From: Teredinibacter purpureus
GTDB lineage: Bacteria; Pseudomonadota; Gammaproteobacteria; Pseudomonadales; Cellvibrionaceae
Length of the DNA: 64,000 bases
Assembly: GCF_014217335.1 (NCBI RefSeq)
Contig: NZ_CP060092.1
Span: 1,939,501 to 2,003,500 of the forward strand
Direction: 5' to 3'
In this document: positions 3,096 through 23,439 of the stretch, one piece after another
Layout: each line of letters opens with the position of its first letter
Numbering within the stretch: the first letter of the stretch is position 1
The notes under the pieces: generated by a model
Told to the model about the DNA's origin: nothing
Database searches by the model: none
The model's input: only the letters and a program-made list of their open reading frames with translations
Program-made: the position numbers and the translations under genes

Positions 3096-3101
3096 ATTCT
3101 C

Positions 3102-3127: not shown

Positions 3128-3159
3128 CACAGGTAAAAATAAGAAGAGGAGAAGAAACC

Positions 3160-4524: not shown

Positions 4525-4527
4525 AAA

Positions 4528-4553: not shown

Positions 4554-4601
4554 TCAATCAACTGTATTGAAAGGTAGTGAAGTATTGATAGGAGGTGAAC
4601 T

Positions 4602-5216
4602 GTGACTAACAGCATAAAGTTAAAAATCTTAAGCGCTTGTGTTGCTCTTTGTCTTATAATTATTGCGGGACTTGGTTACAGCACATGGACGCTACACGAT
4701 AAAGTGAACCAGTTAGAAAATACGCATGCATCGACTTATAATCCTGCTGCGCCTTTGATTTCTCCGGTACCAAAAAGTGATAAACACTGGAATGGTATTT
4801 GGGATGACTTTAATTCCATGCCCAGAGACTTCTCGCAAATGGATAAGTGGATGGGTGACATGATGAATAAAATGAGATCGGGCCGTTCAATGTTTCAACA
4901 GCCTGGATATGACATGTTAGACCAATCGTCAACGATTGAGATTGAGGAGAATGAGCATGAATATAGAGTTATTATTGAAATGTTTGAAGGTGAAGAAGTT
5001 GAACTGAATACAGAAATTTCTGACGGTGTTCTTTCCGTATCAGGAAGAGTAAAGAACAGCGCGTCAGATAAAGGGGCAAGCCTGTTTTCTCAGTCACAAT
5101 TCCTGAGCGAATTTTCAAGGACATTTGTTCTTGATGAACCCATTGATCAAGCAGGGATGGAAGTGGTTAACGAAAAAGGGAAAACGATTGTGGTCGTTCC
5201 GAAGGTTGTTAGCTAA
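4602..5216 (+). CDS. Membrane-anchored Hsp20-like protein, predicted periplasmic
   Basis: The 204-residue protein starts at GTG with AGGAGG six bases upstream. Residues 6-31 are one hydrophobic segment preceded by lysines and not followed by a clear signal-peptidase site, so it should be a signal anchor with the rest in the periplasm. A short coiled segment and a Met-rich region (residues 75-105) follow. Residues 110-204 read as a divergent alpha-crystallin domain: ENEHEYRVIIEM, then DGVLSVSGRV, a FSRTFVLDEPID block and KGKTIVVVPKV at the end. Standard Hsp20 proteins are cytoplasmic and soluble. Gene order right after degP suggests that it holds unfolded envelope proteins for the protease. 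The domain call rests on pattern only. Confidence 0.75.
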   Translation: MTNSIKLKILSACVALCLIIIAGLGYSTWTLHDKVNQLENTHASTYNPAAPLISPVPKSDKHWNGIWDDFNSMPRDFSQMDKWMGDMMNKMRSGRSMFQQPGYDMLDQSSTIEIEENEHEYRVIIEMFEGEEVELNTEISDGVLSVSGRVKNSASDKGASLFSQSQFLSEFSRTFVLDEPIDQAGMEVVNEKGKTIVVVPKVVS

Positions 5217-5380: not shown

Positions 5381-6231
5381 ATGTGTGCAGATTACGCAAT
5401 CATGGAAGAAATAATCGATGTGGGGGAGCATGCATTTTCTTTGCGAGAGATAAGCCAAATCGCCAACGATGAAAACATCCTCGCACGTTACGAGAAAAAC
5501 TATCCAAATGAGCTATATTCAATGATTATGATGTCATTGACCCAAAAAAAAATAAGGAGAATGAGTCCCGGCAATTGTGGGTTAGTATCATCAAGCACAG
5601 GCAATGTTTAAACGAGCGACTGGAAAGAGATGTTGGAATATCGGTCGCATCACTGGATTATCTAACAAATATCAAAGGATACTTGGAAGAGCCTAAGATT
5701 ATTGAGGACAAAAAAAGTAAACTATTTTCAGAAATCGCATTGACTGATGATTTAACGGGGCTTTATATTCGTGAGGTTTTCGACGTAACACTTAACAGGG
5801 AAGTTGAGAGAGCGAAGAGAAATCATCAGGCATTAAGTTTAGTTTTTATTGATATTGATAATTTTAAGCAAATTAATGATCGAAATGGACATCTTGCTGG
5901 TGATGAGGTTTTGAGAAAGGTTGCTAATTGTATTGAGTCATCAGTAAGAGAAATGGATTTGCCTGCCCGATATGGTGGCGATGAAATCGCCGTGATTATG
6001 CCTAATACTGCCATTGAAGATGCCAAAGAAGTTTGTGATAGAATTCGAAAAAATGTTCAGACATCAATATTCGAGTCTGGCGTTCAGGTGACTATAAGCG
6101 TGGGTCTAAGTTTATACGATACTGCGATGAAAAATTTGGAGGAATTTATCGACGCTGCTGACTCTGCGCTTTACAAAGCAAAAGAAACTGGTAAGAATAA
6201 TGTGTATCATGAAAACGCTAGGCTTTCCTGA
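5381..6231 (+). CDS. Diguanylate cyclase (GGDEF) with a frameshift at an A9 run
   Basis: Would make cyclic di-GMP. The reading frame opens at ATG 5381 behind GGGAGG and runs to a run of nine A (5551-5560 region); the intact GGDEF part lies in the -1 frame to TGA at 6231. Adding one A, or a -1 slip, joins them into one protein of about 283 residues. The catalytic domain (last 165 residues) has DDLTGLYIREVF, FIDIDNFKQINDRNGHLAGD, the active-site RYGGDEI, and an RxxD inhibitory site five residues before GGDEI. The N-terminal part of about 110 residues is helical and unrecognised. It may be a pseudogene, a slippage-expressed gene or a sequencing error. If the first frame is read alone, the product ends at 5611 and lacks the catalytic domain. 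Confidence 0.75.
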
Positions 6232-6754
6232 TCTTTTTACACCTGATCTTAGTTCTTTGCTCACTCCACAGCCTAGGCGGATCTACCGCCAGATCAAATA
6301 AGGTCACGGTCGGTGGCAATTGGTCGTCAAGAATGGCCTCGACGATATCTGGCGCTAGTGTAGTCAGGTTAACCATTCGGCTGACGTAGCTGTTGTCGAC
6401 GCCTTCTTTCTCTGCAATTTCCCTTAGGGATTTAGCTTGGCCGGTTTCCAGCATGGCGAGCCAGCAATGGCCGCGTGCCAGAGCTAGCTGCAGTGGTGTT
6501 GGATCAGTATCCCATGGCCTGGGCTCATGGGAGGAACCATCAGGTAGAGTGATAAGTTGTCGGCCGCTTCGGCGTTTTAAATTGATAGGCACCGAAATAC
6601 TGAGTTGGCCATTACTGGCTTCAACAACGCTTGAGTCACCTGACTGACTCATTTCAATTTTAAAGCCGCTACCTTTGTTGTTCACCCCATCCTTGGGGTT
6701 CACCGCTTCGCGGCCCGCAGAGCGGTCCAAATTATTTCCAGAAGAATTTGTCAT
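6218..6754 (-). CDS. ParB-like helix-turn-helix protein associated with the recombinase remnant
   Basis: A 178-residue protein of unproven function. Residues 58-72 contain an arginine-rich LKRRSGRQLITLP segment; residues 85-155 resemble the ParB/KorB helix-turn-helix region (LREIAEKEGVDNSYVSRMVN followed by LAPDIVEAILD). No ParB nuclease/CTPase signature is visible. Its start overlaps the recombinase stop (ATGA), so the two were co-expressed. Small proteins of this kind often accompany large serine recombinases on mobile elements. Its 3' end overlaps the diguanylate cyclase gene convergently by 14 bases, suggesting that an old element junction lies here. Confidence 0.6.
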   Translation of the reverse strand: MTNSSGNNLDRSAGREAVNPKDGVNNKGSGFKIEMSQSGDSSVVEASNGQLSISVPINLKRRSGRQLITLPDGSSHEPRPWDTDPTPLQLALARGHCWLAMLETGQAKSLREIAEKEGVDNSYVSRMVNLTTLAPDIVEAILDDQLPPTVTLFDLAVDPPRLWSEQRTKIRCKKIRKA

Positions 6755-7182
6755 GCGACCTCCTGTTTGGCTGAGTCAGTAATTTCTAAGGCGAGTCGTT
6801 CTATACCATTTTCCCAAAGGCGAATATCAATATTGTCTGGCTTGACGATGATTTTTTCGATCATCAATTTAATGATGCGAGATTGCTCATCAGGGAATAA
6901 TTGCTCCCAAACGTTATCGATCTTGTTAAGCGCGACGGTAACTTGGGCTTCATCAATATCGTGGTGTTTCTCCTGTACGATAGATGCAACCTGTTGCGTA
7001 ACGGGCGGTGCTTTGAGAATACCTCTGATTTGTTCAACAACAGCCGATTCTAGTTCGGCTGCAGGGATTCTAGGCAAGCCTGATGCGCCAGAATATTCCT
7101 TAGTATCGCGAGTGCTGATGTAGTAGCGATACCGTCGGCCACTCTTTTTCTTAGTTGAACTCCAAGTTGTCAGCGCTCGGCC
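6751..7182 (-). pseudogene. Large serine recombinase, C-terminal remnant
   Basis: What remains corresponds to the end of the zinc-ribbon region (SGRRYRYYIS) and the C-terminal coiled-coil/tail of large serine integrases. The first visible residues directly abut the end of the IS3 element; the catalytic N-terminal domain with its serine is absent from both sides of the insertion, so it was lost and not just split. It was probably the integrase or resolvase of the element that delivered neighbouring genes. The reading frame can be extended a few codons into the IS. Confidence 0.7.
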
Positions 7183-7239
7183 TGTTCTGGTCAAGTAAAA
7201 CCGGACACCTATTTTTTATAAATTCCCTGCTAACGCGCT

Positions 7240-8543: not shown

Positions 8544-9398
8544 TTACAAACCTAAAAACCATTCAGGATCCACGGTTACCTTTTCAACAAGTTCCGTTTT
8601 TACCCCTAGTGCCAGTTCTTTTAGTTTATCTGCGAGTTGGTCACCATCCACTAAATCAATTGGGGCTGCGCCATCTCGGTTGGCTTCTTCAATCGCTGAT
8701 TTAGTAAAGCTACCGGTTGTAATAAACATGCCTCGGTCGGCTCGGCCAACGGTGGCACCTCTGAAATCACGAATTTCTGGTGACCCAACAGAACCTTTGT
8801 ACTTTTTACATTGAAAGCAAATGTGAAAGCTCATTAAGCCGTTGATCCGAGCAATACCTTTGCCATCAATACCGCCATCGCCGGTTCGGCCGGTAACCTC
8901 AACATGCACAAAACCTGACTCACGTAACATACGTTGAGTAAGTCGTTCAAACGCATCTGGGCTCATTTCTTCTATCAAAATATGATGAAGGTGCTCTCGC
9001 CATGCGAGTGTTTCTTCAGGTGACTCATCAATGGCTGTAGCTGGGTCAGTCGGGTCCTCGGAACCTTTGCTTGTCTTTTTATCTAAAGAGCGCACGTAGC
9101 TGACTATTTCCCGGCTATCAATCTCTTTTGACTGTCTTGCCTTATCTGTTAGCGCCCAAACACCACGCGCTGAGTTTTCTAAATATCCTGCTTTTTTAAG
9201 ATAAGTGCGTGCCCAGGCCAAGCGATAGCCGATTTCTGTCTGGCTGCTTTTCTCAGGATTGTGTAAAGCGGCCAGCGTATCTTCGTCAAACTTTTCTAGC
9301 TCGATAACTTCTTCGTACATTTCATCAATGCTGGCTGAGCCACCAAGATTTACCAGCGCTTTCATCAGCGGCAACATAAGTTGATCAAACGTGACCAT
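8544..9398 (-). CDS. mrr: Mrr-type restriction endonuclease
   Basis: A 284-residue protein with an Mrr N-terminal winged-helix domain (about 1-95) and an Mrr catalytic domain (about 140-270). The PD-(D/E)xK-type nuclease residues are seen as Asp174 in GDGGIDGKG and Gln-Cys-Lys at 196-198 (FQCKKYKG); Mrr enzymes use the QxK variant. Family members cut methylated foreign DNA. The start lies inside the end of mcrC (14-base overlap), so it is the last gene of the defence operon. McrBC loci usually end with mcrC, so this extra nuclease is notable. Confidence 0.88.
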   Translation of the reverse strand: MVTFDQLMLPLMKALVNLGGSASIDEMYEEVIELEKFDEDTLAALHNPEKSSQTEIGYRLAWARTYLKKAGYLENSARGVWALTDKARQSKEIDSREIVSYVRSLDKKTSKGSEDPTDPATAIDESPEETLAWREHLHHILIEEMSPDAFERLTQRMLRESGFVHVEVTGRTGDGGIDGKGIARINGLMSFHICFQCKKYKGSVGSPEIRDFRGATVGRADRGMFITTGSFTKSAIEEANRDGAAPIDLVDGDQLADKLKELALGVKTELVEKVTVDPEWFLGL

Positions 9399-10527
9399 TT
9401 GTTTCTCCTATAAAAACTAATTCAAGAAGCAGCAATAAGCGCTCTCTAATAGACGATGCCGTTTCTCCCAAATTAACAGTGCAAAACCATATTGGATGCC
9501 CTTGTATGGTAACAACCTCGTCGAGCTCTTTGTCCACCGTGGGGTGCAATAACATACCTATGCTTGATAGCGTGTTAGCGGAGCTAGGCACCTCCTGGCT
9601 ACGAAGGTAGGTATACATTTGGTATATGTATCCGCTTCGAAGTGTTTCTTCTCGATGCCAGCCTTTAGTGGTGACTGAGTTGAATTTTGTGTCGATAACT
9701 AGCCTACATCCAGTGTCGCGTTGATCGATAATAATATCTGTTTTCATGCTTGGCATAATGGCATCAATGCCTGCTGTTTTTTTTGTTACCTGCCAATTGA
9801 ATTGCCTCCCAGCCAAAACACGCCATTGAGCTTTTTCAAGCGTGACTGAGTAAAATCCCGCAATAGCTTTCTCGAATAACTTCCTGAGCCAAGTAACTTC
9901 TTTATCAGGTAAGGCTAGATGATGTTGACCGATAAACTCTGTAGGTAGCGCTAACGAAAATGCTAGGTCTGCTGCAGCAATCATTTTTTGATCTTCTGCA
10001 TCATGACGACCAAAGCGTTCACTTTTTCCGTTATAGCCGGATGGCTTGCCTTTGCTTACCCCTAAACGCTCTAAATTCATGACCAAAGCTTTGCAGCGTC
10101 GAACGAGACCAGCCTTCTTTACAAGTTTACTGAGCTGCTCGAGCGCTGCTCGAACATAACGATTTCTGGGAGTATCGACCGATAGCTCTTCAAAACGACA
10201 ACAAATCTTGCCCTTATCAAGTAACCGATGACGTTCGGTATATAAAGAATCAATGCGACCTCGAACTCGGCCAACAATTGCGACCTTGTTTTCATAGCCA
10301 AAACTTAGATTTCTAGCTAAGCGATGCTCGACTTGATGGCATAAAATTTCAGCGACCAAGTCTGCAATGTCTTCGGGGTTATCTTCAACAGCAATTTTAG
10401 CTGAGCCCAACTGGCGATATAGGTCAGAAGCGTAAAGCATTAAAAGCCAAAGATTTCTGACAGGTATTTTTCCGATGGAACGAGTCTCATCTTCTGAGTA
10501 CGCTGTTTGAGTGGCCCAAGCGCTCAT
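9385..10527 (-). CDS. mcrC: McrC-type nuclease subunit of a type IV restriction system
   Basis: Partner of the McrB-like GTPase/ATPase in cutting modified DNA. The protein of about 380 residues has the McrBC 5-methylcytosine restriction system component layout: an N-terminal RNLWLLMLYASDLY region, a middle helical part, and a C-terminal nuclease core with Asp265 (MKTDIIID) and the DTK motif at 280-282 (LVIDTKFN). The nuclease therefore looks active. The ATG overlaps the mcrB stop by one base (TGATG). An in-frame TTG one codon earlier is possible. Confidence 0.87.
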   Translation of the reverse strand: MSAWATQTAYSEDETRSIGKIPVRNLWLLMLYASDLYRQLGSAKIAVEDNPEDIADLVAEILCHQVEHRLARNLSFGYENKVAIVGRVRGRIDSLYTERHRLLDKGKICCRFEELSVDTPRNRYVRAALEQLSKLVKKAGLVRRCKALVMNLERLGVSKGKPSGYNGKSERFGRHDAEDQKMIAAADLAFSLALPTEFIGQHHLALPDKEVTWLRKLFEKAIAGFYSVTLEKAQWRVLAGRQFNWQVTKKTAGIDAIMPSMKTDIIIDQRDTGCRLVIDTKFNSVTTKGWHREETLRSGYIYQMYTYLRSQEVPSSANTLSSIGMLLHPTVDKELDEVVTIQGHPIWFCTVNLGETASSIRERLLLLLELVFIGETNGHV

Positions 10528-12977
10528 CAAATACCTACAACCAGAGCGTCTTGTGCTTTACGTGAACGTTCTAAATCGTCAAACCAATATTCGTCTAGTA
10601 ATGGCCCTATTTCAGTTTGAACAACACTCTTATACCACTTTTCGGCATCTTTAATCGTGTTGCTAAAAGCAGGAGTGACATAGCTGTGGCCAACCTTAAA
10701 TTGAGCGCCGAGGTTTCTGTCTTTCTCAATATCATTGTTTAGCGCCAAGAGGCGAGTTTCAATCTCTTCTAACAACGTCATTGAAATACCTGCCTTTGCA
10801 TGAACCCATTGTCGCCAAGGCTCACCAAATATTGGCTTTAAGTCAATGAAAGCAAATCGTCGACGCAATGCGAGATCAACCAATGCAAGAGAGCGATCAG
10901 CGACATTCATTGTGCCAATGACGTACAAGTTATCAGGTACAAACACACGCTCACTTTCATTTCGGCGATAGCTTAGCTCTAAGGCTTCAGTTGGAGTTCG
11001 TTTGTCAGCTTCAAGTAAGGTCAGCATTTCACCGAAAATTTGTGCTGGATTGCCTCTGTTTATTTCTTCAATGACTACAACATGTTTAGTCTTAGCGTCT
11101 TTTTTCGCTTCATTAATCATTTCTAAAAACGGACCATCAGCCAATGTTAACTTTCCATCACCCGATGGCCGCCAACCGCGAACAAAGTCCTCATATGACA
11201 AGTTTGGGTGAAATTGAACTGCCCGTAATTTGCTATCATTCCTTTGGCCCATCAGCGCAAATGCTAATCGTTTCGCAAGCCAAGTTTTTCCCGTTCCAGG
11301 AGGTCCTTGCAAAATAAGGTTTTTCTTGGTGCGAAGTCGTTCTAAAATCTCACCTAAGGACTCTCTGTCGATAAAGCACCCGTCAGTGATAATGTCATCC
11401 AGTTGATAAGGTTCAATGGGCGCTGCGGTTACTTCAGACTCTCCCTCATCATCTGCAGTTTCATCAACAAAATCCGGATCTGTTGCATTTGGATGAGCTG
11501 AAGTATCGCCATCTTTATATAGCCAAGCCGCGAGCGAAAGTTCAGGAAACGAATGCACAGGGTAGGCTTCTTCCTGAAATCGTAACTCCAATTCATCCAG
11601 TACTTTCAGGTAATCCTTTGAACTACAGCGTCGCTTAGGGCCATTTTTGCCGATATCAATACCTAGCTTTTTAGTGATGTAAAGCTGAGACTGACCGTCA
11701 AGAGTTAAATAATTCCATGGGCGGATCCAATATAGCGCCATAGTCAAGTTCCAGCCGACGCCATATTGACTGGTTACTTGGTCATAAGCAGAGCTGAATT
11801 CACTGCGAGCATCAGAGTTGTCGCTATCTGAAAACTGCAAAGCGATATCAAAGAAGCTCCATAACGATTCTATATCTGTAGTCTGGCGCTTATCTTCAAA
11901 CCCAAAAAACCATGATTTTTGGTTGTTTAAAATGGGGATACCCTCGAAAGAGTTGGGCACACCCTCGGTGACACCTAAATAATCAGCAAGGTCTTTGGCA
12001 ATGGCCTTGCGGTTTTCATCCGTTATACCTCGGTTAAATAATCCTATGACAGTAAATGGACAAATATCATCTAACTGTTTGTCTTTAATATACGAAAGAT
12101 CAAATTTATCGGCGAGCTGGATGACAAATGAAATAAGTTCTTGGCGCTTATCCTTGTAGGTGATGAGCTTGTCGGCGACAGCTTCATAAAACTGAGTCCA
12201 TTTAAATCGTTGCTTATCTATTGGCGTATCACCGAATCGTTCCTTCCAATAGGGGGCATTACGGAATCGGTCAACATCTTGAGGCTTGCTATTGAATGTG
12301 AAATTAACCAGACCTTCAGTCATCCACTCGTCGGGGGATACTCGCCAGATTGTGCTTCGATTGGTATAAAAATACCATTCTTTAACAGGCTCCTGTCTCG
12401 GTTCCCAGTCAACATCAACGAAGCGACCATCGCCATGATTTTTGGTGACGACCCCAATAGCTTTAATGCCCATAACCGAAACGGATTGCTCTTTGTTGTC
12501 AAAAGATAGGTTTCGCTTACGAACATAAGAGGACTTAATAGCAATTTTGTCACCTGGCTGCATTGAACGAACAACATCAAGGTATTTGTCTTTATAGCCA
12601 TTTTGCCAAACGCCTTCTGCCAAGAATCGATCGGTTTGGTCTTCGCTGCCTTTCCCGTAAGACGCACCAACGAACCAGTACGATTTAGGGGGGGCAGTGG
12701 TTGTGTCCGCCTTAGCTAATATTTCAGAAAGTACTTCATCCGATATCGGTAGCTGATGTTTATCAAGCACTGATCTGAGGCGCAACTTGAGCTCAGCGGT
12801 GGTATTGCTCTTAACATTCCAGTCAGTGTACTTTTTTGTTTCAGTAACGATATTTGTTAGCTGTTCAATTACGTCATTGAGTTTATCTTGCTCGATGCTT
12901 ATTTTTTTAGTCTCTACAAGTGACGACACAAACTTTTTTAAGTCACTTTCTGAATTACTAATTGATTCATTAATCAT
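10527..12977 (-). CDS. mcrB: McrB-like AAA+ motor with N-terminal EVE-like reader domain
   Basis: Motor and recognition subunit of a type IV restriction system. Of 816 residues, about 98-225 resemble an EVE/PUA-like modified-base reader (SYWFVGASYGKG, PGDKIAIKSSYVRK, EWYFYTNRSTIWRV); this assignment is inferred from pattern. Residues 230-500 are helical and unassigned, with an acidic linker at 497-516. The AAA+ domain has Walker A GPPGTGKT (558-565), Walker B VVVIEEINR (633-641) and the McrB-type signature MNVADRS (690-696). E. coli McrB has GxxGVGKT and NTADRS. The start is 46 bases after the hsdR stop, the largest gap within the operon. Confidence 0.87.
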   Translation of the reverse strand: MINESISNSESDLKKFVSSLVETKKISIEQDKLNDVIEQLTNIVTETKKYTDWNVKSNTTAELKLRLRSVLDKHQLPISDEVLSEILAKADTTTAPPKSYWFVGASYGKGSEDQTDRFLAEGVWQNGYKDKYLDVVRSMQPGDKIAIKSSYVRKRNLSFDNKEQSVSVMGIKAIGVVTKNHGDGRFVDVDWEPRQEPVKEWYFYTNRSTIWRVSPDEWMTEGLVNFTFNSKPQDVDRFRNAPYWKERFGDTPIDKQRFKWTQFYEAVADKLITYKDKRQELISFVIQLADKFDLSYIKDKQLDDICPFTVIGLFNRGITDENRKAIAKDLADYLGVTEGVPNSFEGIPILNNQKSWFFGFEDKRQTTDIESLWSFFDIALQFSDSDNSDARSEFSSAYDQVTSQYGVGWNLTMALYWIRPWNYLTLDGQSQLYITKKLGIDIGKNGPKRRCSSKDYLKVLDELELRFQEEAYPVHSFPELSLAAWLYKDGDTSAHPNATDPDFVDETADDEGESEVTAAPIEPYQLDDIITDGCFIDRESLGEILERLRTKKNLILQGPPGTGKTWLAKRLAFALMGQRNDSKLRAVQFHPNLSYEDFVRGWRPSGDGKLTLADGPFLEMINEAKKDAKTKHVVVIEEINRGNPAQIFGEMLTLLEADKRTPTEALELSYRRNESERVFVPDNLYVIGTMNVADRSLALVDLALRRRFAFIDLKPIFGEPWRQWVHAKAGISMTLLEEIETRLLALNNDIEKDRNLGAQFKVGHSYVTPAFSNTIKDAEKWYKSVVQTEIGPLLDEYWFDDLERSRKAQDALVVGI

Positions 12978-13023
12978 TTTTAAACGCCCCTAGATTCCAA
13001 ACTGAAGTCCATCATTTATTGTT

Positions 13024-16000
13024 TTACTTCGTCCATGAGTTGGACAGGGTTTCGGCTTGCTTTAAAATAAGCTCCACCGCTTCAGCCGCTTTGTCTGGCG
13101 GGTACTTCCAACGCTGCAATGTTCGTCTAACCAATATTTTTAGTTTCGCTCGAACACTATCTCTTACTTGCCAATCAACAGTAGTGGACCGTCTAAGCTT
13201 TTCGGTAATCTCAACGGCGATTTGCTTAAGAATGTCATCGCCTAATTCCCTTACTGCGCTTTCGTTGTTGGCTAACGCATCATAAAAGGCAACTTCATCG
13301 GGGTTTAGCCCAAGCTCAGCTTCGCGTTCCATTTCGGCCTGGAACTCTTTAGCCATTTGAATCAGCTCTTCAATAACCTGCGCCGTTTCAATAGCGCGGT
13401 TATTGTATTTTCGTAGCGTTTCTTGCAGTCGGTCAGAAAATTTCTTTTCTTGCACAACGTTGTTTCGCTTCTTAGCTTTGATGTCGTCTTTTAACAGTTT
13501 CTCCAAAAGCTCAACGGCCAAGTTTCGATGTGGCATTTGTCGAACGTCTTCTAAAAATTCATCCGATAGCAGTCCAATATTTGGCTTGTCTAATCCGCAA
13601 AGCGCAAATACATCGGCTACGGCCTCAGCAACAACGGCATTATCAAGAATTTGCTTTAAGGCAGAATTTTTCTCTTCCTGAGTACGCTTTCTATCAACAG
13701 AAGTGAATTTTGATATCGCTGCTTTAATCGCTGAATAAAACGCTATTTCTTTTCTTAAGGCTTTTGCTTCATCCAATGTGCTGCAGAGCGAGTAAGCTTT
13801 ACTGGCGGCTAGCACTAAATCGAGAAAGCGTTTCTTGCCATCGCTTAATCCAAGCACATAGTTGGCAGCAGGCACTAAAATCTTATGGGCTTCATTTTCA
13901 AAGCCAGAGATGTCGATACCATCGCCCTGTGGGGTTTTGGCAAACATCCCCCGTAATGCATCCAATTTCTCAAGAAAAATAGCAAAAGCCTCTTCTGCTT
14001 GTAATGCGGGTTCGCCTTTTCCGTTAGAGTCTGTATAGGTTTTTAATGCCTGCTTTAATTCATTAGCAATACCTATGTAGTCAACCACTAGGCCGCCAGG
14101 TTTGTTTTTAAATACCCGGTTCACGCGCGCGATAGCCTGCATCAGGTTATGGCCCTTCATAGGTTTATCAACGTACATAGTGTTACAGCAAGGCGCATCA
14201 AAACCTGTTAGCCACATATCGCGCACAATCACGAGCTTAAGCGGGTCGTTTATGTCTTTAAAACGAGTTTCTAATCGTTTTTTAGTTTTCTTGTTGTAGA
14301 TGTGAGGCTGCAACAATGGCTTGTCCGATGCCGAGCCAGTCATGACTATTTTAATCGCGCCTTTTTCAGGGTCGGCGGCTGTGTCTAATGGAGCGCCATG
14401 CCATTCTGGGCGCAAGGCGACTATTTCGTTGTATAAATGTGCGCAAATATCTCGGCTCATACCCACAATCATGGCTTTGCCATCCATGGTGGCATTGCGT
14501 GTTTCAAAGTGGTCGACTAGATCTTTAGCTACTTGCGTCAAACGAGGCGTTGCGCCTACGAGCTTTTCTAGTCGGCTCCATTCCCCTTTGGTTTTTTCAC
14601 GGTTAGAGAGATCCTCTTCGTCTTCAACCACCTCGTCGACTTCATCAGACAATGCGGATATTTCATCGTGGTTCAAATCTAATTTAGCAAGGCGAGACTC
14701 GTAGTAAATGGGCACAGTGGCACCGTCATCTACGGCATCCTGAATGTCATAGATGGAAACATAGCCGCCAAACACCGCGCGCGTATCCTTGTCTTCTTGC
14801 GAGATAGGCGTGCCGGTAAAGCCAATAAAGGAAGCAAAGGGTAACGCGTCTCGCATATGTTTGGCGTAACCAAACTTATAATGGCCATCAGCAGTCAACG
14901 TAGCTTTCAAACCATATTGGCTTCGATGTGCTTCGTCGGAAATCACCACCAAGTTGTGCCGATTATTTAATATGGGGTGATGCGATTCTTCCTTGCCATT
15001 TTCATCTTTGATCAGAGCAAACTTCTGTACTGTTGTGAATATGATGCCCCCCGATTCCCGCTCAGCAAGCAATTGGCGAAGCGTATCTCGATCATTGGCC
15101 TGCACTGGTGTTTGCTTTAACAGCTCTACGGCATTCGAGAAGGTAGCAAATAGCTGTCCATCAAGGTCGTTGCGGTCGGTTACCACAATCAGTGTTGGGT
15201 TGTTCATTGCGGGTTGCTGCAAGAGCTTACCGGCGTAGCAGCACATTGAAATACTTTTACCGCTGCCCTGGGTATGCCAAACCACACCGGCTTTTTTACT
15301 GCCGGGTATCACTTCATCGCCATAGCTCGCGCGTTTTTCACCAACGGTATTGGTTTCTAGCTCTTGTGAGGCTACCACGGTGGCTTTAACGGCTTCGCGC
15401 ACTGCATGAAACTGGTGGTAACCTGCTATTTTCTTAATAATGAGCTCGCCATCGGTTTCAAATAGTACAAAGAAACGGATGTAATCGAGAAATAATTCCC
15501 GATCAAAAAAGCCACGCACCATGGTTTCTAGCTGCCACTCTAGCAATGGCTTATCGTCTTCATCTTTAATCGTACGCCAAGGCATAAAACGTTCTTGGTT
15601 GGCGGTAAGCGACCCTACGCGTGCGGTGTATCCATCACTGACGACGAGTGCTTCGTTAAAAACAAATAGGTCCGAAACTTCATCTTTGTAGGTTTGTAGT
15701 TGATTAAACGCATCCCAAATATCAGCATTTTCATCGCTGGGGCTTTTTAATTCGAGTACGGCAAACGGCAGGCCGTTGATAAAGCAAATGACATCTGGGC
15801 GGCGTGGTTGTTTGGTGCCCGTTATCGTAAATTGATTAGCCGCAACAAAGTGATTGTTTTCCATCCGTTCAAAGTCAACAAGGAAGGCATGATCGCTGAC
15901 TATTTCAGAACCCGCTGAGGGCTCTTGATCCGCTGAAGGCTCGCCACCATCATCATCCAACTTAAATTCAACAGCAACGCCCTCAAGCAGTAAGCGATGA

Positions 16001-16269
16001 AAGGCTCGGTTATTAGTAACAAGGTCGAGGCTTTCAGGTTTACTAATTTTACTCAATACTTGTTCAAAGCAGTTTTCCAGCACTTGTGCGGGTAAGTGCG
16101 GGTTGATCTTCTCAAATACTTGCCGCAAGTCATTTTCTAAAATCGTCTGAGCATAGTCGCGGCGCTTTGGGTTTGAACCGTCAGGTGCGATATCAGGACC
16201 ATGCAATACATCCCAGCCACCTTCGCGAAACCAATCTAAACAGAGGTTTTCTAATTGTTCTTCATTCAT
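13024..16269 (-). CDS. hsdR: Type I restriction enzyme, restriction subunit HsdR
   Basis: Translocase-nuclease subunit that pumps and cuts unmodified DNA. Of 1081 residues, the N-terminal nuclease domain has Asp159 and ELK at 173-175; the superfamily-2 helicase has Walker A TQGSGKS (333-339), DEAH (445-448), a FTGTP motif III and the late motifs around TGFDAP and QAIARVNR. The C-terminal helical domain binds HsdM. Residues 105-126 hold an Asp/Gly/Ser/Glu-rich insert with an internal repeat. The start overlaps the rhuM stop as ATGA. Confidence 0.96.
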
Positions 16270-17312
16270 CGTTCATCTCCGCTTTTCTTAGCCAAGCGTT
16301 TTTTAATCTCACGGTCAAAGTCTGATTCAATCTTTTGCTGTTTGTTGAATTGCTCATACTCCTCATGGGCTTTTTGCTCAGCCTGCTTGCGTGAAATATT
16401 GCCGTAACCGTCTAAAATATTGTATTCATTAAAGGCCAAAAATTTATTCACGCTTTCGCTAAAGCCTTCCATGGTAAAGGCATTTCGTCGCTCGATAATG
16501 CCTTCTATGTAGTCAAAAAATGCACCTACGGCACGTTCCAGCTTCTTAATATCGGCTTCGCTTAAATAGTTTTTGGCAATAACGGTGTCTGACTTTAAAA
16601 CACGGCCTGCTGGGGCGTTTTTATAAGTGCTCATACCCATTAACGGTTTGCTGGCATCGGCGTGGTTAGCAATCATTTCTGCAGCGGTGTGGCCAGTAAT
16701 GGCAAAGTGAAACTTATCTTGCACATGGGCATAAAACAGGCGCGTGGTTTCCGACTTTGGGTCGTAATCCATACTGCACTCGGCAAAAATATCGGTGATC
16801 TGTTGGTAAACACGCCGCTCGCTGGCGCGTATGGAGCGCACGCGTTCCAGTAGCTCTTTAAAGTAGTCTTTACCAAAGTATTGACCGTTTTTTAGGCGCT
16901 CATCATCCATGGCAAAGCCTTTGATGATGTACTCTTTGATTAAGGCCGTCGCCCAAATGCGAAATTGGGTGGCTTGCGCCGAGTTTACGCGATAACCCAC
17001 CGAGATTGCCGCGTCTAGGTTGTAGTATTTGGTCTGGTAGGTTTTGCCGTCGTCGGCAGTTGTTTCCAAAATGGAAATAACTGAATATTCGACTAACTCG
17101 TTGCTTTCAAAGATGTTTTTTAGGTGTTTAGAGATCCCCGGCACACCGACTCCAAACAATTCCGCCATACGCTTTTGGGTGAGCCACAGGGTCTCGTTAT
17201 TGAGCAATACCTCCACTTTTACTTCGCCGCTGGGGGCGGTGTAAAGCAAAAACTCGGTGCTTTGGTCTTGTAGGCTAAGGGCATTATTGGGTTTTAGGGG
17301 TTTATCGCTCAT
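16266..17312 (-). CDS. rhuM: RhuM family protein in the restriction operon
   Basis: A 348-residue member of the RhuM family, named after a Salmonella pathogenicity-island gene; its biochemical role is not known. Recognisable parts are the N-terminal [16 protein letters not shown] helix-turn-helix-like block, the [16 protein letters not shown] segment, the [16 protein letters not shown] block, and a C-terminal Glu/Lys-rich coiled coil. It overlaps fic and hsdR by 4 bases each. RhuM genes are repeatedly found next to type I hsd genes, which points to a defence-related or regulatory role. Confidence 0.88.
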
Positions 17313-18304
17313 ACATTGCTCACTACTTCCCAGTGGCCGGTTTTGTCCGAACCGCTTCGGGTTAATTTTCCCGCTTGTTGCAGCTTTGTAATGGCGCGCC
17401 CAATGGTGCGAAGGTCTTTGCCCAGATTGTCGGCCATTTGTTGGCGTGTTATCTGTGGGTTTTGTTGAATTAACGCCAGTATTGCCTCGGGGGTTTTAAG
17501 GGCGGCGCTATTTTCGGGAGAATTTACAGGGGCGTTTACAGGGGCGTTTACAGGGGCGTTTTTGGACAAGGTCTGAGAGATAACCGATAACATAAAATGA
17601 ATAAAAGGCGTACTTTGCGCTTGTTCGTCGGCCTGCTCTAGGGCCTGATAATACTGGTGTTGGCTATCTTTTATAACGCTTTCCAAGGGCAAGGCGAGAA
17701 ATAAGGGATGCCATTTTGACAAAATCAGCGTTTGCCACAAGCGGCCCATGCGCCCGTTGCCATCGGTAAAGGGGTGGATGAACTCAAATTCGTAGTGAAA
17801 CACGCAGCTGTTAATCAAAGGGTGGTGGCTTGATTGCTGTAGCCACCCCATCAAATCGGCCATCAATCCGGATACTTGATGCGCAGGCGGGGCGACATGG
17901 TGCACTGTTTTACCCTTGTGTATGCCCACGGCTTTATTGCGGAATTGACCCGCGTTTACGAGTATATCCGACATCATTAAGGCATGAGCTTGCAATAAAT
18001 CGTCTGTACCTTCTGGGCTTAACTGTGGCAAGGCCTCATACGCTTTAATGGCCCCTTGCACTTCGGCCAATTCACGGGCGCTGCCCATCACCGGCTGCCC
18101 ATCGACAATGGCGGTGATCTGTTCTTCTGTCAGTGTATTGCCTTCAATGGCCAGAGTGCCGGTAATGGTTTTAATGCGGTTTTGCTTGCGCAGCTGGGGT
18201 GAGGCATCAAATGCGCGGGCGTTGAGCATCCCCACCTGCTCGCTGATGGTCGCCACCAGATTGAGAATATCTGCGGTGATCGTAAAAGGTGGGGTATAGC
18301 TCAT
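17309..18304 (-). CDS. Fic family protein (predicted AMP-transferase) with winged helix
   Basis: Probably transfers AMP or another nucleotide moiety to a target protein. Of 331 residues, the Fic core has the complete catalytic motif HPFTDGNGRMGR at 177-188, and an upstream TLAIEG at 50-55 fits the (S/T)xxxE(G/N) inhibitory helix, so the enzyme should be self-inhibited (class II). A linker of about residues 248-262 has the tetrapeptide APVN repeated three times, encoded by a 12-base tandem repeat. A C-terminal winged helix (about 270-325) suggests DNA binding. It overlaps hsdS and rhuM by 4 bases each. The target is unknown. Confidence 0.9.
   Translation of the reverse strand: MSYTPPFTITADILNLVATISEQVGMLNARAFDASPQLRKQNRIKTITGTLAIEGNTLTEEQITAIVDGQPVMGSARELAEVQGAIKAYEALPQLSPEGTDDLLQAHALMMSDILVNAGQFRNKAVGIHKGKTVHHVAPPAHQVSGLMADLMGWLQQSSHHPLINSCVFHYEFEFIHPFTDGNGRMGRLWQTLILSKWHPLFLALPLESVIKDSQHQYYQALEQADEQAQSTPFIHFMLSVISQTLSKNAPVNAPVNAPVNSPENSAALKTPEAILALIQQNPQITRQQMADNLGKDLRTIGRAITKLQQAGKLTRSGSDKTGHWEVVSNV
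17526..17561 (+). repeat. 12-base tandem repeat, three perfect copies, within fic
   Basis: The unit ACAGGGGCGTTT occurs three times head to tail and encodes the Asn-Ala-Pro-Val linker repeat on the minus strand. Copy changes would keep the reading frame. A degenerate partial copy precedes it. Confidence 0.9.
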
Positions 18305-19779
18305 GCGTTGGCCTCACTGGTTTCCTCATTTAAGGTTGAGAGGTCGATTTCGCCGGAGAGGAGCTTGGGTAGGAGAGTGTTCCTTAACTCTTGCAAATAT
18401 GTCTTTTCACTATTTAAATTCATAATAAATGGATAAAAGCTTTTGGTCTTTTTTGAAAATTTTTCTCTTAGATCTTTTGGTGGCAGTGAGAACGGAAATT
18501 TCATTATGGCATCTTTATCACCACGGGGCATTTTTGCCCCTTTGGACGTTGTCATCATGTACTCAAAAAAACGGTCTTGGTAAACAAGGTTATAGACAAA
18601 TTCGGTTTCTTTTTTTTCTAGGCTAGAGAACCCTAGAACATCAGCTGAACGCCCCCCATTAAAAGTCGCTAACCATATTTTTTTGAAATAGGGTCTAATA
18701 TTAGAAATTAAAATATCGCATTTATGAAATGCTGGAACTGTGTTTACTGTCGGTAGGTTGGATGCTGAGGTAATTCCCTTTCTATTCTCAAGCATATTTT
18801 CAGTTGATATGTAATGATCTAAATCCAGAGAAGAAACTTGTATTCGCTCTGAAGTAAATTGCAATACATCTTGTAGAGTTCCTTTTTCCCATCCCTCCGG
18901 TATCTCCCCAAGCTCAGACTCCTGCATCCTTGATGGAAACAAAGCGGCGGTTTGGGCGAGTTGTTGGTAGGTTGCTCCCGGCATCCGGCCTCCTGCGACA
19001 TTTGCATCTCCTTCGGCAGCGGCTCCTTGCGCTGCTCTACCTCCTGCATCCATGCAGTCGTGTGCGTCACGGTCTAGGTTGCTTTGTTTAAGCTCGGCTA
19101 ATGCTTCAAGGCTAAGTGAGGAAATAACACTCATGGCGGCGAGTTCGGCCTCTTCGGCACTGCCGCCCGATTCCAGTACGGCTATTTTGGCTTTGACGGG
19201 ATCGAAATCGACAAACCAGCTTTTGAATATGGCTTGGGCGATGGCTTCTAGGGTTTGGTTTGTTTGGGTGTTTAGTTGGGTTTTGTTTGCCAAATTTGAC
19301 AGAACTTTCGCAATACGCTCCTCGTGATATGGGAGCCTTGGTATATTCAAAGCCTTTAGAACTGGAATCCGTACGTTACTCACAGTAGACCCTGTACCTT
19401 CATTCCATGAAATCTGATGCTGAACAAATGGCGACTGTAGCGCCCAGAATAAATACTCCCCACAAATCTCTGATTTTGGCCTAAGTAATACCTGTCGTTG
19501 ACCAAGGCAACATTGGATACCTTCAGGAATAAGACAAACCTCTCCCATTGGTGCTTCTCTGGTAAAAATAATATCGCCCGCTTGCGGTTTGGCTCGTTTT
19601 ATTCTACTTAAATAACCCTCTTTATTTGTAAAGCTTGGAGTACTAAGACTCAAAGTACCATTTTTAATATTCTGATTTCTAGTAACAATATAGCCTTCAT
19701 CCGTCCATTTAGGCGTTGAATGAGGGCAATCTATTATCAACTCACACATAGACTCTAACGTGACGGTACTAGCACTCAT
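18301..19779 (-). CDS. hsdS: Type I restriction enzyme, specificity subunit HsdS
   Basis: Recognises the bipartite target sequence for HsdM and HsdR. The 492-residue protein has two target recognition domains (about 1-190 and 300-490), each followed by a conserved helical segment; the first ends TLEAIAQAIFKSWFVDFDPVKAK-like text and the second LLPKLLSGEID. Between them, residues about 235-273 form an Ala/Gly/Asp-rich insert unlike normal spacers, related in sequence to an insert in hsdM. The ATG at 19779 is chosen because it overlaps the hsdM stop by 11 bases; the longer frame adds 19 basic residues translated out of hsdM. Confidence 0.92.
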   Translation of the reverse strand: MSASTVTLESMCELIIDCPHSTPKWTDEGYIVTRNQNIKNGTLSLSTPSFTNKEGYLSRIKRAKPQAGDIIFTREAPMGEVCLIPEGIQCCLGQRQVLLRPKSEICGEYLFWALQSPFVQHQISWNEGTGSTVSNVRIPVLKALNIPRLPYHEERIAKVLSNLANKTQLNTQTNQTLEAIAQAIFKSWFVDFDPVKAKIAVLESGGSAEEAELAAMSVISSLSLEALAELKQSNLDRDAHDCMDAGGRAAQGAAAEGDANVAGGRMPGATYQQLAQTAALFPSRMQESELGEIPEGWEKGTLQDVLQFTSERIQVSSLDLDHYISTENMLENRKGITSASNLPTVNTVPAFHKCDILISNIRPYFKKIWLATFNGGRSADVLGFSSLEKKETEFVYNLVYQDRFFEYMMTTSKGAKMPRGDKDAIMKFPFSLPPKDLREKFSKKTKSFYPFIMNLNSEKTYLQELRNTLLPKLLSGEIDLSTLNEETSEANA

Positions 19780-21610
19780 AGCCAATCCCCGCCAAGTTCT
19801 CCTTAATCGCTTTCTCCAATGTGTCTGATTCTTCAAATTGCGCTTTCAACAAGGCTGTGAGTCGTTGCATTTTTTCTGGAAAGGCTTCTCCATCGTCTTC
19901 TACATCGGCCGCACCTACATAACGACCGGGGGTTAGTACAAAGTCGTGTTTTTCCATCGACACTCCCGGTTTCCTGCCTCCCGTGTCACTAGCGCGTCCT
20001 TGCGCGTCGTCGTCAAATATCGGTACGCTGGCGCAGAAACCTTTCTCGTCTTGATAGCCGTCACCTTGCTGCCACGCATGAAAGGTGTTGGTGATGGTGG
20101 CGATGTCGTCGGTGGTGAAGTCGCGCAGTACTCGGTCTTTCATAAAGCCTAGGTTACGGGCGTCAATAAAGAGTGTTTGTCCGCGTCTGTCGCGTTTTTC
20201 TGAATTCCCGCTCTGGCTCCCATGCTCTGCCTGTGCACCCGTGCCGCGCTTGTTCTTAGTCAAAAACCAAATACACGCAGGGATTTGGGTGTTGGTAAAC
20301 AGTTGGCCGGGCAATGCCACCATGCATTCCACTAAATCGGCTTGTATTAAGGCTTTGCGAATTTGACCTTCGTTGTTGGTGTTGGAGCTCATGGAGCCAT
20401 TGGCCAGTAACAGGGCCATGGAGCCGTTGTCGTTGAGGTGGTGCAGCATGTGCTGTATCCAACCGTAGTTGGCGTTGCCTTGGGGAGGTGTGCCGTACTT
20501 CCAGCGCACGTCGCCTTCTAATTTGGCGTGCCACCAGTCTTTGATATTAAACGGCGGGTTGGCCATAACAAAGTCGGCGCGTAGGTCGGGGTGTTGGTCG
20601 TCTAAAAAGGTGTCGGCGTTTTTTTTGCCAAAGTTAAAGTCGATGCCGCGAATGGCCATGTTCATGGCGGCCAGCTTCCAGGTGGTGGGGTTGCTCTCTT
20701 GGCCGTAGACGGAGATATGTTTTTTTTGTTCGGCGGCGTTGTAGTGTTTTTCGTCTTCGTGGGCTTCGATGAATTTATCGTTACTCACAAAAAAACCACC
20801 GGCGCCCATGGCGGGGTCGTAGACGCGGCCTTGGTAGGGTTGCAGCATTTCTACAATTAATGTAACGATGCTTTTAGGGGTGTAATATTGGCCGCCCTGT
20901 TTGCCTTCGGCGAGGGCGAACTGGCCTAAAAAGTATTCGTACACATGACCGAGTATGTCTTTGCTGTGTAGGTCGAGTTTTTGGCCCTTGTATTCGGGGT
21001 TGCGAAAGCTGGTGTCGGAGAATTTGTTGATGAGCTCGGTAAGCGTGCTGTTGTCCACTTCAAAGCGGGTGATTCTTGGCAGTACGCCTTTGAGTTTTGG
21101 GTTGGCGAGTTTGTCATCGACTTTGTAGGTTTCGATTTGTTCTAGGGCGTTATCGACTAACCAATTAATTGAGCGCAGTTTAGCGTCAATACCGCTGGCG
21201 TCTTGCCACAATACGCTACCTATAGCCAGTGCGGCGCTTTCTTTAATAAAGCTCCATCGGGCCTGTTTGGGCACCCAAAATACATTCTCGGAGACGTAGT
21301 ATTCATTTTGTTCCATCTCCTCATTAACGGCTTGTTGGTAGGCTTCGTCGCTGTCGTAGTCTTCCCTTGGCATGTAGTAGATATTGTCTTCGCCATTGGC
21401 TGCGGGGGCAGCTTCGGTAAACAGCTTGCGCAAGTCAGTTTGGCGCTCGTCGAAGGCGTCGGACACGTATTTTAAAAAGATCAAGCCCAGTACAACGTGT
21501 TTGTAGTTGGCGGCGTCTAGGTTGTTGCGTAGTTTGTCGGCGGCTTTCCAGAGTTTATCGTCCAGCTCTTTTAAAAATTGTTGTTCGGCGTTGTTCATGC
21601 TTTTACTCAT
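19769..21610 (-). CDS. hsdM: Type I restriction enzyme, DNA methyltransferase HsdM
   Basis: N6-adenine methyltransferase subunit that protects host DNA. Of 613 residues, an N-terminal HsdM_N helical domain (about 10-170) precedes the catalytic domain with the SAM-binding motif DPAMGAGG (265-272) and catalytic NPPF (351-354). Two Gly/Asp/Ser-rich segments, about 456-475 and 530-552, interrupt otherwise conserved text (between TKNKRG and LFIDARNLGFM, and before HDFVLTPGRYVG); they look like extra inserts. It starts 20 bases after the WYL regulator stop, so both share a transcript. Confidence 0.96.
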   Translation of the reverse strand: MSKSMNNAEQQFLKELDDKLWKAADKLRNNLDAANYKHVVLGLIFLKYVSDAFDERQTDLRKLFTEAAPAANGEDNIYYMPREDYDSDEAYQQAVNEEMEQNEYYVSENVFWVPKQARWSFIKESAALAIGSVLWQDASGIDAKLRSINWLVDNALEQIETYKVDDKLANPKLKGVLPRITRFEVDNSTLTELINKFSDTSFRNPEYKGQKLDLHSKDILGHVYEYFLGQFALAEGKQGGQYYTPKSIVTLIVEMLQPYQGRVYDPAMGAGGFFVSNDKFIEAHEDEKHYNAAEQKKHISVYGQESNPTTWKLAAMNMAIRGIDFNFGKKNADTFLDDQHPDLRADFVMANPPFNIKDWWHAKLEGDVRWKYGTPPQGNANYGWIQHMLHHLNDNGSMALLLANGSMSSNTNNEGQIRKALIQADLVECMVALPGQLFTNTQIPACIWFLTKNKRGTGAQAEHGSQSGNSEKRDRRGQTLFIDARNLGFMKDRVLRDFTTDDIATITNTFHAWQQGDGYQDEKGFCASVPIFDDDAQGRASDTGGRKPGVSMEKHDFVLTPGRYVGAADVEDDGEAFPEKMQRLTALLKAQFEESDTLEKAIKENLAGIGYEC

Positions 21611-21630
21611 GTTCGGGATCTCTTAAATTC

Positions 21631-22596
21631 TTAACATTCGGTGTTGTAACCAGGGGCGATAGCTAAATTATCGACCCCGTACAGTGTTTGTTGGTTCTTG
21701 AGCCAGAGGTGATTTTCTGGCCCATCTAATTGATGTTCTTTTGAGCAATCCACATTCCAGCGACGTAAAACATAGCCCGCTACAGCTGCGCGAACTTGCA
21801 GCGCCAGCATCACACCATCCTCGCCTCTATCTTGATCTAAGTCATCTTTCGCTGGCTGCATGTCGTACTCAAATGCGATGGTTTCTGGATGCGTTAATCG
21901 AGGGTGCGGCACAATGTGTAAATCAACAATACGATTCCATTGATTATCGGCAGCCTTGGTTTGCGCTTCTGGAATCGCTTCATCGATAAGTTGTGGTGCT
22001 TCAATACGGTTAACAACAAAATCAGCAAAGCGATCACGAGCTCTGTCGTAACCTCTAACATGCCAACGCAGGCCGTTATCAATCAATGCGAAAGGCACAA
22101 TTTCGCGCTCGTTTGAACCGCTGGATAGTGAGCGGTACTTGATTTTCAAAGCTTGGCTGTTGTGTATGGCTCGGGTGATATGAGCTAATGTTTGTATGTT
22201 TGGGTAGTTAAGCTGTGTTGGTGCTTCGCAGGTGACGATGGATTTTTGAGTGCCTACAAAGTCATCACCAAAGCCATGCAGTAGCGCTGCTAATGTTTGG
22301 CTGCATGAATACTCAAAGAGTGGCGAAAAACCATCTCGCTGAATATAGGTTTTAGCTTTGGTGTCGTATTCGATGTTTTTGGAGGCGAGCTCTTTATATA
22401 AAGAAAGGTCTCGTGAGGCGGCTGCTTCCTTAATGCCAAAACGTGATACCAGATCAGTGCGGTTAACCGAGCCTAGAAAGTAGAGCTTGAAGTCTATATG
22501 GAATAGACGCTCCCTTTGGGCTTGGCTAACTTTCTCTAACTGCGCTCTAGGCAGTGCTAGCTGATCCTGTTTATTGTTGTTAGCAGTGGGCGACAT
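21631..22596 (-). CDS. WYL-domain transcriptional regulator, probable operon controller
   Basis: A 321-residue regulator with an N-terminal winged helix (about 25-85), a WYL domain (about 135-205, with LRWHVRGYD at 176-184) and a C-terminal extension (WCX). This architecture matches the BrxR/CapW-type regulators that repress phage-defence operons; the WYL pocket is thought to sense a nucleic-acid-like ligand. As the first gene of the nine-gene operon it most likely represses its own promoter, in the 270 bases upstream. The start ATG is the first of a long frame; a shorter start is possible. Confidence 0.85.
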   Translation of the reverse strand: MSPTANNNKQDQLALPRAQLEKVSQAQRERLFHIDFKLYFLGSVNRTDLVSRFGIKEAAASRDLSLYKELASKNIEYDTKAKTYIQRDGFSPLFEYSCSQTLAALLHGFGDDFVGTQKSIVTCEAPTQLNYPNIQTLAHITRAIHNSQALKIKYRSLSSGSNEREIVPFALIDNGLRWHVRGYDRARDRFADFVVNRIEAPQLIDEAIPEAQTKAADNQWNRIVDLHIVPHPRLTHPETIAFEYDMQPAKDDLDQDRGEDGVMLALQVRAAVAGYVLRRWNVDCSKEHQLDGPENHLWLKNQQTLYGVDNLAIAPGYNTEC

Positions 22597-23046: not shown

Positions 23047-23439
23047 TGGTGGAGGCGGGGGGATTTGAACCCCCGTCCGTCAGCTCTCTCTCCGCGGCTC
23101 TACATGCTTAGTTTCCGTCAATTGGTTTTAACTCCTCTACAGCCCGGCGGGCAGGACGTAGTGAGCGAGTTCGCTTAAGGTTTCGCAATGTTGTCACGAT
23201 CAAAACAACGCAGCTATCCAGTTCTATATGACAGTCAGTAGCGCGATACTGGCACCTTGCTAAAGACCGCTAGCGGCGAACCACTAGTTGGTGTTTTACA
23301 AGCTACTTACGCAGCGAGTTGAGCACCGTAGTTGTCATCATTGGCAACTGTAAGATTGCAGCTTTGGATTAACGTGATTGGCTACCATCACGACATGCAC
23401 CTTGGGCTTTGATACCGGCGTCGAATCCTAATCGCCCCC
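23047..23439 (-). ncRNA. ssrA: Transfer-messenger RNA (tmRNA)
   Basis: Rescues ribosomes stalled on broken mRNA together with SmpB. The 5' end GGGGGCGATTAGGATTCGAC is typical, and its first seven bases pair with CGCCTCC just before the ACCA 3' end (one G-U pair) to form the alanine-type acceptor stem. The tag reading frame (23307-23345) encodes ANDDNYGAQLAA and ends TAA. The T-arm reads GTTCAAATCC. The adjacent smpB gene, on the same strand upstream, supports the call. The 5' leader carries a hairpin (CGAGTT arms). Confidence 0.97.

Follow-up and report, generated by a model that had tools for sequence, protein, structure and literature searches.

Do restriction systems that are encoded side by side merely work side by side, or may one of them borrow the machinery of another? 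This question is raised by a 64,000-nucleotide stretch of the Teredinibacter purpureus genome (contig NZ_CP060092.1, positions 1,939,501 to 2,003,500; hereafter the window, whose own coordinates are used unless stated otherwise), in which nine genes on the minus strand (22596-8544) follow one another in the order BrxR-family WYL regulator, hsdM, hsdS, fic, rhuM, hsdR, mcrB, mcrC and mrr. We are highly confident that they form a composite restriction operon, with a BrxR-type regulator, a type I restriction-modification (RM) system, exchangeable cargo and a McrBC-Mrr type IV module. The part that is apparently unreported is not the composite operon but a tail on McrB that resembles the C-terminus of HsdR. 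We tentatively propose, with somewhat less than even confidence, that McrB docks on the type I methyltransferase through this N-terminal tail. On the explanation as a whole, a composite cassette in an island at ssrA together with McrB docking on HsdM2S, our judgement is evenly balanced.

An HsdR-like tail on McrB

The mcrB gene (10527..12977, minus strand) encodes a long-form protein of 816 aa with an NxxD-type GTPase (AAA_5; motifs GPPGTGKT and NVADRS). Its profile (A1) matches McrB structures, for example PDB 6hz4 at E 4.3e-89, and it scores under the NCBIfam equivalog cut-off (250.8 vs 637 bits). Residues 22-92 of this protein (12702..12914, minus strand) form a domain that resembles the tail of HsdR. 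The Pfam family T1RH-like_C (PF11867), which we take to be the same as DUF3387, matches McrB 23-92 with positions 256-325 of its 329-position profile, at E 1.3e-7 for the whole protein and 1.8e-9 for the fragment alone; the score of 31.8 bits lies above the gathering cut-off of 26.8, and coverage is confined to the final fifth of the profile. When a profile of 16 McrB N-terminal sequences was aligned to HsdR tails, hhalign gave a probability of 91.5. With full-length HsdR the probability was 73.6, and the match fell at columns 978-1045 of 1062, that is, at the extreme C-terminus.

In the operon itself, hsdR (13024..16269, minus strand; HSDR_N, SWI2_SNF2 and T1RH-like_C domains; NCBIfam hsdR 596.5 bits vs a cut-off of 284.55) ends in the corresponding tail, approximately residues 1004-1077 (13039..13260, minus strand), which is the hhalign partner of the McrB N-terminus and is strongly conserved in 78 HsdR relatives. 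Seven long frames of 1075-1140 aa, taken as HsdR, match McrB only within its first 92 residues (15-92, 29-39% identity). In a small alignment, features common to the tails are DW (DF in P0053), alanine eight residues on (serine in L063) and, further along, a proline. McrB 1-98 as a protein query returned nine proteins, all near-identical to that of T. purpureus and thus too narrow a set to be useful. A search for McrB in viral contigs gave 19 pattern matches and no relative.

A search of openly licensed papers, available to us in part, found no description of an HsdR-like tail on McrB or on FRG proteins. The tail architectures are already recorded by Pfam and by one JGI product name, and it seems that these domain architectures are on file with their meaning undiscussed.

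Retention of the tail and the forms of McrB

Is the tail maintained by selection? In the closest intact long-form McrBs (L081 vs L123), dN in the tail is 0.04 and dS 0.35, a dN/dS of ~0.11. Two pairs with L130 give dN/dS values of 0.07/1.09 and 0.09/1.14 (ratio 0.06-0.08) and weigh less, because mcrB in L130 is broken. The tail evolves faster than the remainder of McrB. PF11867 is matched in 15 of 40 chosen McrB relatives, and the tailed McrBs are otherwise only ~68-78% identical to that of T. purpureus. Both the dN/dS far below 1 and the presence of the tail in McrBs this divergent argue against a fusion accident, in which a 3' remnant of hsdR was fused ahead of mcrB and is neutral. Such an accident would be in keeping with tail-only frames of 84-119 aa in five loci, read as hsdR 3' remnants, with an hsdM-tail chimera (P0231) that resembles a deletion product, and with the breakage of mcrB in three of seven loci; we nevertheless consider it very improbable.

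Precomputed Pfam annotation assigns PF17726, PF14338 (Mrr_N) or PF12102, in addition to the shared core, to further McrBs of this group, and in L148 an Mrr_N-like stretch lies ahead of the McrB core in the same frame. Given these additional families, the tail may fill the place of a target-finding (DNA-reading) domain. Residues ~98-235 of the T. purpureus McrB may be EVE-like, but Pfam gave no match to such a modified-base reader. As a separate observation, P0030, P0041 and P0055 have McrB cores close to others and N-termini of ~95 residues that are very different, as though this domain had been swapped through recombination, possibly to suit other partners.

Linkage of long-form McrB to hsdR

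Long-form McrB lies directly behind hsdR in all seven loci with context, namely the T. purpureus window, L014, L081, L122, L123, L130 and L131. Only four of these long forms are intact (the window, L081, L122 and L123), because mcrB is broken in the other three. Four of the loci (L122, L123, L130 and L131) come from McrB-based genome scans in which hsdR was not used. In these scans, with our own genome excluded, linkage to HsdR was found for 4/4 long forms vs 1/16 non-long forms (Fisher P = 0.001). Counting our own genome as a fifth long form lowers the P value to 0.0003; we regard 0.001, from which the hsdR-based loci are also excluded, as the fair figure. The comparison includes 16 of the 17 genomes that have a non-long McrB at E <= 1e-40 (G241 was left out), and three of the 16 loci have less than 4 kb upstream (L129, L145 and L152). 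Among the non-long forms, G026 has an HsdR match of 30%, and L126, L128 and L150 have weak hsdM-like matches (23-25%). Among the other four long forms, mcrB is broken in two (G730 and G536). Compared with T. purpureus, L123 shows 87% identity in HsdR, 76% in McrB and 42% in HsdM, as if R and McrB had travelled together.

Other carriers of the tail

The tail is not confined to McrB. In five loci (L005, L012, L016, L063 and L073), FRG proteins encoded between hsdS and hsdR bear it at their C-terminus, with Pfam E-values of 2.7e-14 in L005 and 1.1e-14 in L016, and a model built from HsdR alone finds these FRG tails too. We take FRG proteins to be ADP-ribosyltransferase-like. When the tail of one FRG protein was used as a database query, 153 candidates of similar length yielded 111 tail relatives: 108 combine FRG with PF11867, P0224 combines Abi_C with PF11867, P0217 has PF11867 only, and P0231 is an N6_Mtase chimera that looks like a deletion product. 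The tail of P0224 is matched at E 2.2e-13, but its Abi_C match of 21.7 bits is below the cut-off of 24. FRG and Abi_C proteins without a tail occupy the same interval in L081 and L122, where it is McrB that bears the tail. The Abi_C-type protein of L122 (8381-9067) has its database look-alike in P0224, to which an HsdR-like tail is added.

A search for further tail fusions in 274 genomes, besides the McrBs of G000 and G730, came down to six frames, none of which was a new fusion: L185 is an HsdR with an internal deletion, and the other five, of 84-119 aa, we read as hsdR remnants. Short or tail-only frames of G571, G602, G503 and G660 lie outside these six.

A possible dock on the type I methyltransferase

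How might such a tail act? In EcoR124I, contact of the C-terminal helical domain of HsdR with the methyltransferase is 'proposed', and its role in assembly 'assumed' (PMC5248579). It is because of this proposed contact that we propose a dock for McrB. Through its HsdR-like N-terminal tail, McrB would bind the same HsdM2S core as HsdR does. Either of two motors would then be brought to DNA by the type I methyltransferase: HsdR, which cuts unmethylated sites, or McrBC, which is driven by GTP. One machine would thereby combine the choice of sequence by HsdS with the sensing of base modification by McrB. More speculatively still, the HsdR tail might be a portable docking tag and type I methyltransferases hubs that recruit alternative effectors. 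The tags would be N-terminal on McrBC and C-terminal on FRG and Abi_C-like proteins, their carriers would compete with or follow HsdR, and one HsdS would address both restriction and abortive responses.

A number of results weigh against a dock. The McrB tail shares only 27% identity with the operon's own HsdR (BLASTP E 0.002), and when only close HsdR tails make up the model, McrBs are matched at no better than E 0.01-0.05 and the T. purpureus McrB is not listed at E 0.1. A recent duplication of hsdR as the source of the tail is rejected on the same 27% identity. This low similarity and the poor score of the HsdR-only model indicate that the tail domain is either old or derived from another HsdR subfamily. 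The tail model cited for the FRG C-termini included McrB tails in its seed, and the type I setting of the FRG loci is not independent evidence, because hsdR was the criterion by which all of them were selected. In four McrBs with a long N-terminus there is no good match to the tail, and three of the seven linked loci have, as noted, a broken mcrB. In G071, a non-long McrB and an HsdR-like tail lie on one contig within ~2 kb; this genome is a weaker McrB-scan match outside the 16, and counting it as linked raises the Fisher P value to 0.0025. Tail-less short McrBs also sit behind hsdR, in the integrative and conjugative element (ICE) R997 and in L011 and L013, and the tail is therefore not required for co-location. 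Finally, the McrB tree does not separate long from short forms, which are interspersed in it; some of the short forms are possibly miscalled starts (P0045 begins at the core and P0010 lies on a 2.6 kb contig). One short form, P0029, retains the first residues of the long form, as expected after an in-frame loss.

The interleaving of the two forms, and the tail-less McrBs in the same arrangement, are what would be expected if the systems were stacked and independent, as the sequence-only reading held: type I RM would cut unmodified DNA, McrBC and Mrr modified DNA, only promoter and regulator would be shared, and the McrB tail would be uncoupled from the methyltransferase. Co-encoded RM and McrBC are also already known. 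We regard such stacking without contact as a serious rival and a real possibility, against which stand the low dN/dS of the tail, the position of the long form behind hsdR in 7/7 loci and the fact that FRG and Abi_C-like proteins bear this tail too. The C-terminal domain of EcoR124I also affects translocation, cleavage and ATPase activity (PMC5248579), which counts against a dock and would suit a tail that is a general helical element of several defence proteins, serving in nucleic-acid binding, oligomerisation or regulation and not in docking on a methyltransferase. The other domains that McrBs carry beside their core, including the Mrr_N-like stretch of L148, and the tail's possible replacement of a DNA-reading domain fit such an element as well, and so does a stand-alone DUF3387 gene of Synechococcus with no assigned function. 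All seven McrB carriers with context adjoin hsdR, which speaks against this explanation, and we think it unlikely.

If the tail does dock on the methyltransferase, type I RM is an addressable platform and not a restriction enzyme alone, which could help explain the diversity of effectors between hsdS and hsdR. It would also tie a type I enzyme physically to a type IV enzyme, and no such link was found described in the openly licensed papers of our search, as far as their available parts go. If the tail does not dock, the locus is still a clearly delimited variant of a defence cassette that is already known.

The genes and transcription of the operon

The nine open reading frames (ORFs) run on one strand with no interruption and no internal stops, and the names given to them by the sequence-only reading are correct: they are backed by Pfam throughout, and by PADLOC and NCBIfam wherever either matches (WYL, RhuM and Mrr are unmatched in NCBIfam, and McrC in PADLOC). 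The first gene encodes the WYL regulator of the BrxR family (21631..22596; Pfam WYL E 2.1e-13), followed, all on the minus strand, by the methyltransferase gene hsdM (19769..21610; N6_Mtase E 4.5e-100, HsdM_N, NPPF motif) and by hsdS, the specificity subunit (18301..19779; Methylase_S; PADLOC Specificity_I E 1.1e-99), whose start we take to be the ATG at 19779, while its longest ORF starts with TTG at 19836. Between hsdS and hsdR lie fic (17309..18304; Fic E 9.2e-22; PADLOC SoFic E 1.7e-48) and rhuM (16266..17312; Virulence_RhuM E 1.5e-101). Downstream of mcrB are mcrC (9385..10530; PF10117 E 2.5e-18, motif DIII..IDTK, NCBIfam 384 bits over a cut-off of 338), the PD-(D/E)xK nuclease partner, and the gene of an Mrr-like nuclease with Mrr_N and Mrr_cat domains (8544..9398; Mrr_cat E 3.5e-32), whose relatives in L011, L013 and L081 are 85-88% identical.

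Catalysis motifs are present in HsdR, HsdM, McrB, McrC, Mrr and Fic. By sequence, the locus thus holds hsdM, hsdS and an hsdR with motor and nuclease motifs, as expected of a type I RM system, and an McrB AAA+ GTPase with NxxD together with a PD-(D/E)xK McrC, as expected of McrBC. The Fic protein bears HPFTDGNGRMGR and TLAIEG, the latter presumably an inhibitory-type motif; the HPxxDGN Fic motif was looked for in RhuM and is not present there. A tandem 12-base repeat within fic (17511-17558) encodes repeated APVN residues. Elsewhere in the genome (G000 C1:2545065-2549490) there is a second HsdR-like frame with a methyltransferase.

Overlaps of 1-14 bases, claimed for most junctions, are found at six of the eight: hsdM-hsdS (-11, from the ATG at 19779), hsdS-fic, fic-rhuM and rhuM-hsdR (-4 each), mcrB-mcrC (-4 with the mcrC TTG at 10530, or -1 with the ATG immediately after) and mcrC-mrr (-14). 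The two gaps are WYL-hsdM (+20 bases) and hsdR-mcrB (+46). A scan for sigma-70-like promoters gave 12 sites against a shuffle mean of 21.3, fewer than in shuffles and so no excess. On the minus strand it gave three weak sites (9 of 12) at 22867, 10762 and 9756, and none in the hsdR-mcrB gap. A single transcript for the nine genes is plausible.

That the type I RM, McrBC, Mrr, Fic and RhuM genes stand under one likely repressor, as had been suggested, is upheld by the WYL protein, which matches PDB 7qfz at E 3e-88, CapW (7tb6) at 3e-30 and BrxR (7t8k) at 5e-20. Its homology to BrxR and CapW runs along residues 19-318 and its gene lies 5' of a defence operon, as in members of the BrxR family. 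PDB 7qfz is itself a BrxR, and the E. fergusonii BrxR acts as a repressor; of 210 systems associated with BrxR homologues, 34 are type I and 37 type IV enzymes (PMC9122601). The regulator is therefore probably a repressor of the operon.

A variable cargo slot between hsdS and hsdR

Do the nine genes recur as a unit? We searched for relatives of hsdR with six peptide patterns of one HsdR, and the best 80 of 461 relatives gave 79 loci, all with close HsdRs, which were then searched with all nine proteins at E 1e-5. No locus (0/79) holds all nine genes together; flanks of at least 6 kb upstream and 5 kb downstream of hsdR are present in 53 of the 79. The nine genes as a fixed, conserved unit, as first envisaged, are thus rejected. 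Fifteen of the 79 loci have less than 3 kb downstream of hsdR, and because many loci are short of flanking DNA, the absences partly reflect cut contigs. Of the 64 loci that extend for 3 kb or more beyond hsdR, five have mcrB as the gene directly after it (L081, a Cycloclasticus metagenome-assembled genome; L011, Colwellia; L013, Alteromonas; and L004 and L014, both broken copies). Full-length matches to mcrB, mcrC and mrr together occur in 3/79 loci, and a WYL match ahead of hsdM in 11/79. The idea that the hsd and mcrBC-mrr parts occur independently in most relatives, each with its own promoter, therefore holds in one half: the hsd part mostly stands without mcrBC, but long-form mcrB is behind hsdR in 7/7 loci and no separate promoter was seen.

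In L011 and L013, hsdR and a short mcrB stand in one reading frame with two stops within 18 bases between them (13163-13181). An HsdR-McrB read-through fusion in these loci was considered and rejected, as the tblastn match crosses the two stops and L011 has two separate ORFs 15 bases apart.

The interval between hsdS and hsdR is filled by at least one ORF in 67 of 71 loci, with 112 ORFs in total (called mechanically, at least 90 aa). Their Pfam families include RhuM (14), Fic (13), DUF4268 (11), Abi_2 (9), FRG (9) and SIR2_2 (8), and RhuM and Fic can sit on one ORF. This interval is a variable cargo slot, in which fic and rhuM are exchangeable cargo; as RhuM and Fic are the two commonest families of the slot, fic-rhuM is ordinary cargo here.

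A probable island at ssrA

The 3' end of ssrA (tmRNA; 23047..23439, minus strand; Rfam E 2.7e-68) lies, at 23047, just upstream of the operon. In four of five same-genus genomes compared, the DNA close behind ssrA corresponds to DNA ~33 kb further on in T. purpureus, below ~1929.5 kb of its genome (the window covers 1939.5-2003.5 kb), beside a tyrosine-integrase frame. This frame is short (197 aa; L207 3721-4314, minus strand; ~1928.7-1929.3 kb of the genome), and in a sister genome (L205) a 95% identical integrase stretch starts right at the ssrA end. Since same-genus genomes carry the far-side DNA close behind ssrA, we infer that a block of ~33 kb, with the operon inside, was inserted at the ssrA 3' end. 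A perfect att or terminal repeat was looked for at the far end of the island and was not found.

The island also holds an IS3-type element and, at 6218-7194 (minus strand), a serine-recombinase Zn-ribbon remnant with a neighbour matching a phage 'recombinase' PHROG. The fifth same-genus genome (L203) has relatives of these genes behind ssrA (69-76% identity), with a recombinase frame of 473 aa. At 57-5216 (plus strand), also within the inferred island, a chaperonin, three Hsp20-family genes and a trypsin-PDZ protease follow one another, like a stress-tolerance cargo cluster.

Comparison with known systems

The closest known counterpart is found in ICE R997 of the SXT/R391 family, where hotspot 5 carries WYL-hsdM-hsdS-BstXI-hsdR-mcrB-mcrC-mrr on one strand, the same order as in T. 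purpureus except for the cargo, which is BstXI in R997 and fic-rhuM in T. purpureus. Identity between the two is 85% for hsdR, 75% for mcrC, 85% for mrr, 64% for hsdM and 50% for WYL. SXT/R391 ICEs integrate in prfC, and ICE-TET is listed with WYL, an N-6 methylase, S, BstXI, an AAA protein and McrC (PMC6743048). Hotspot 5 has been described as a type I RM system (PMC5561048). ICEVchInd6, which has several RM systems, is reported in a review to confer phage resistance, and these ICEs to do likewise in E. coli (PMC12409358). The R997 cassette rides on an ICE, whereas that of T. purpureus lies at ssrA; hsdS in R997 is short (234 aa), and its McrB is a short form of 732 aa without the HsdR-like tail, unlike the long form of T. 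purpureus. Because R997 has nearly the same order, and type I RM beside McrBC has already been published, the composite operon is not new and is a variant of a known cassette type.

The immigration control region of E. coli K-12 differs from the T. purpureus operon in gene order and is not known to hold fic or rhuM or to form one operon. As in T. purpureus, type I RM, McrBC and Mrr are clustered there, as EcoKI hsdRMS, mcrBC and mrr (PMC3874165), and the specificity domain of K-12 McrB is DUF3578 (PMC7641849). The K-12-like branch of McrBC is often found beside unidirectional type I RM (Bell et al. 2024; PMC11090510), and shares with T. purpureus the NxxD GTPase and the type I RM neighbours; the available part of that paper, which defers this branch to a later one, contains no mention that we found of an HsdR-like domain in McrB. 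The tail itself has a counterpart in the PADLOC candidate system PDC-S15 (FRG proteins), where the last third of one model matches HsdR 949-1074 and McrB 7-90 and the remainder of the same model matches the FRG protein of L081. In PDC-S15 the tail thus stands at the C-terminus of an FRG protein, whereas in T. purpureus it is McrB that carries it.

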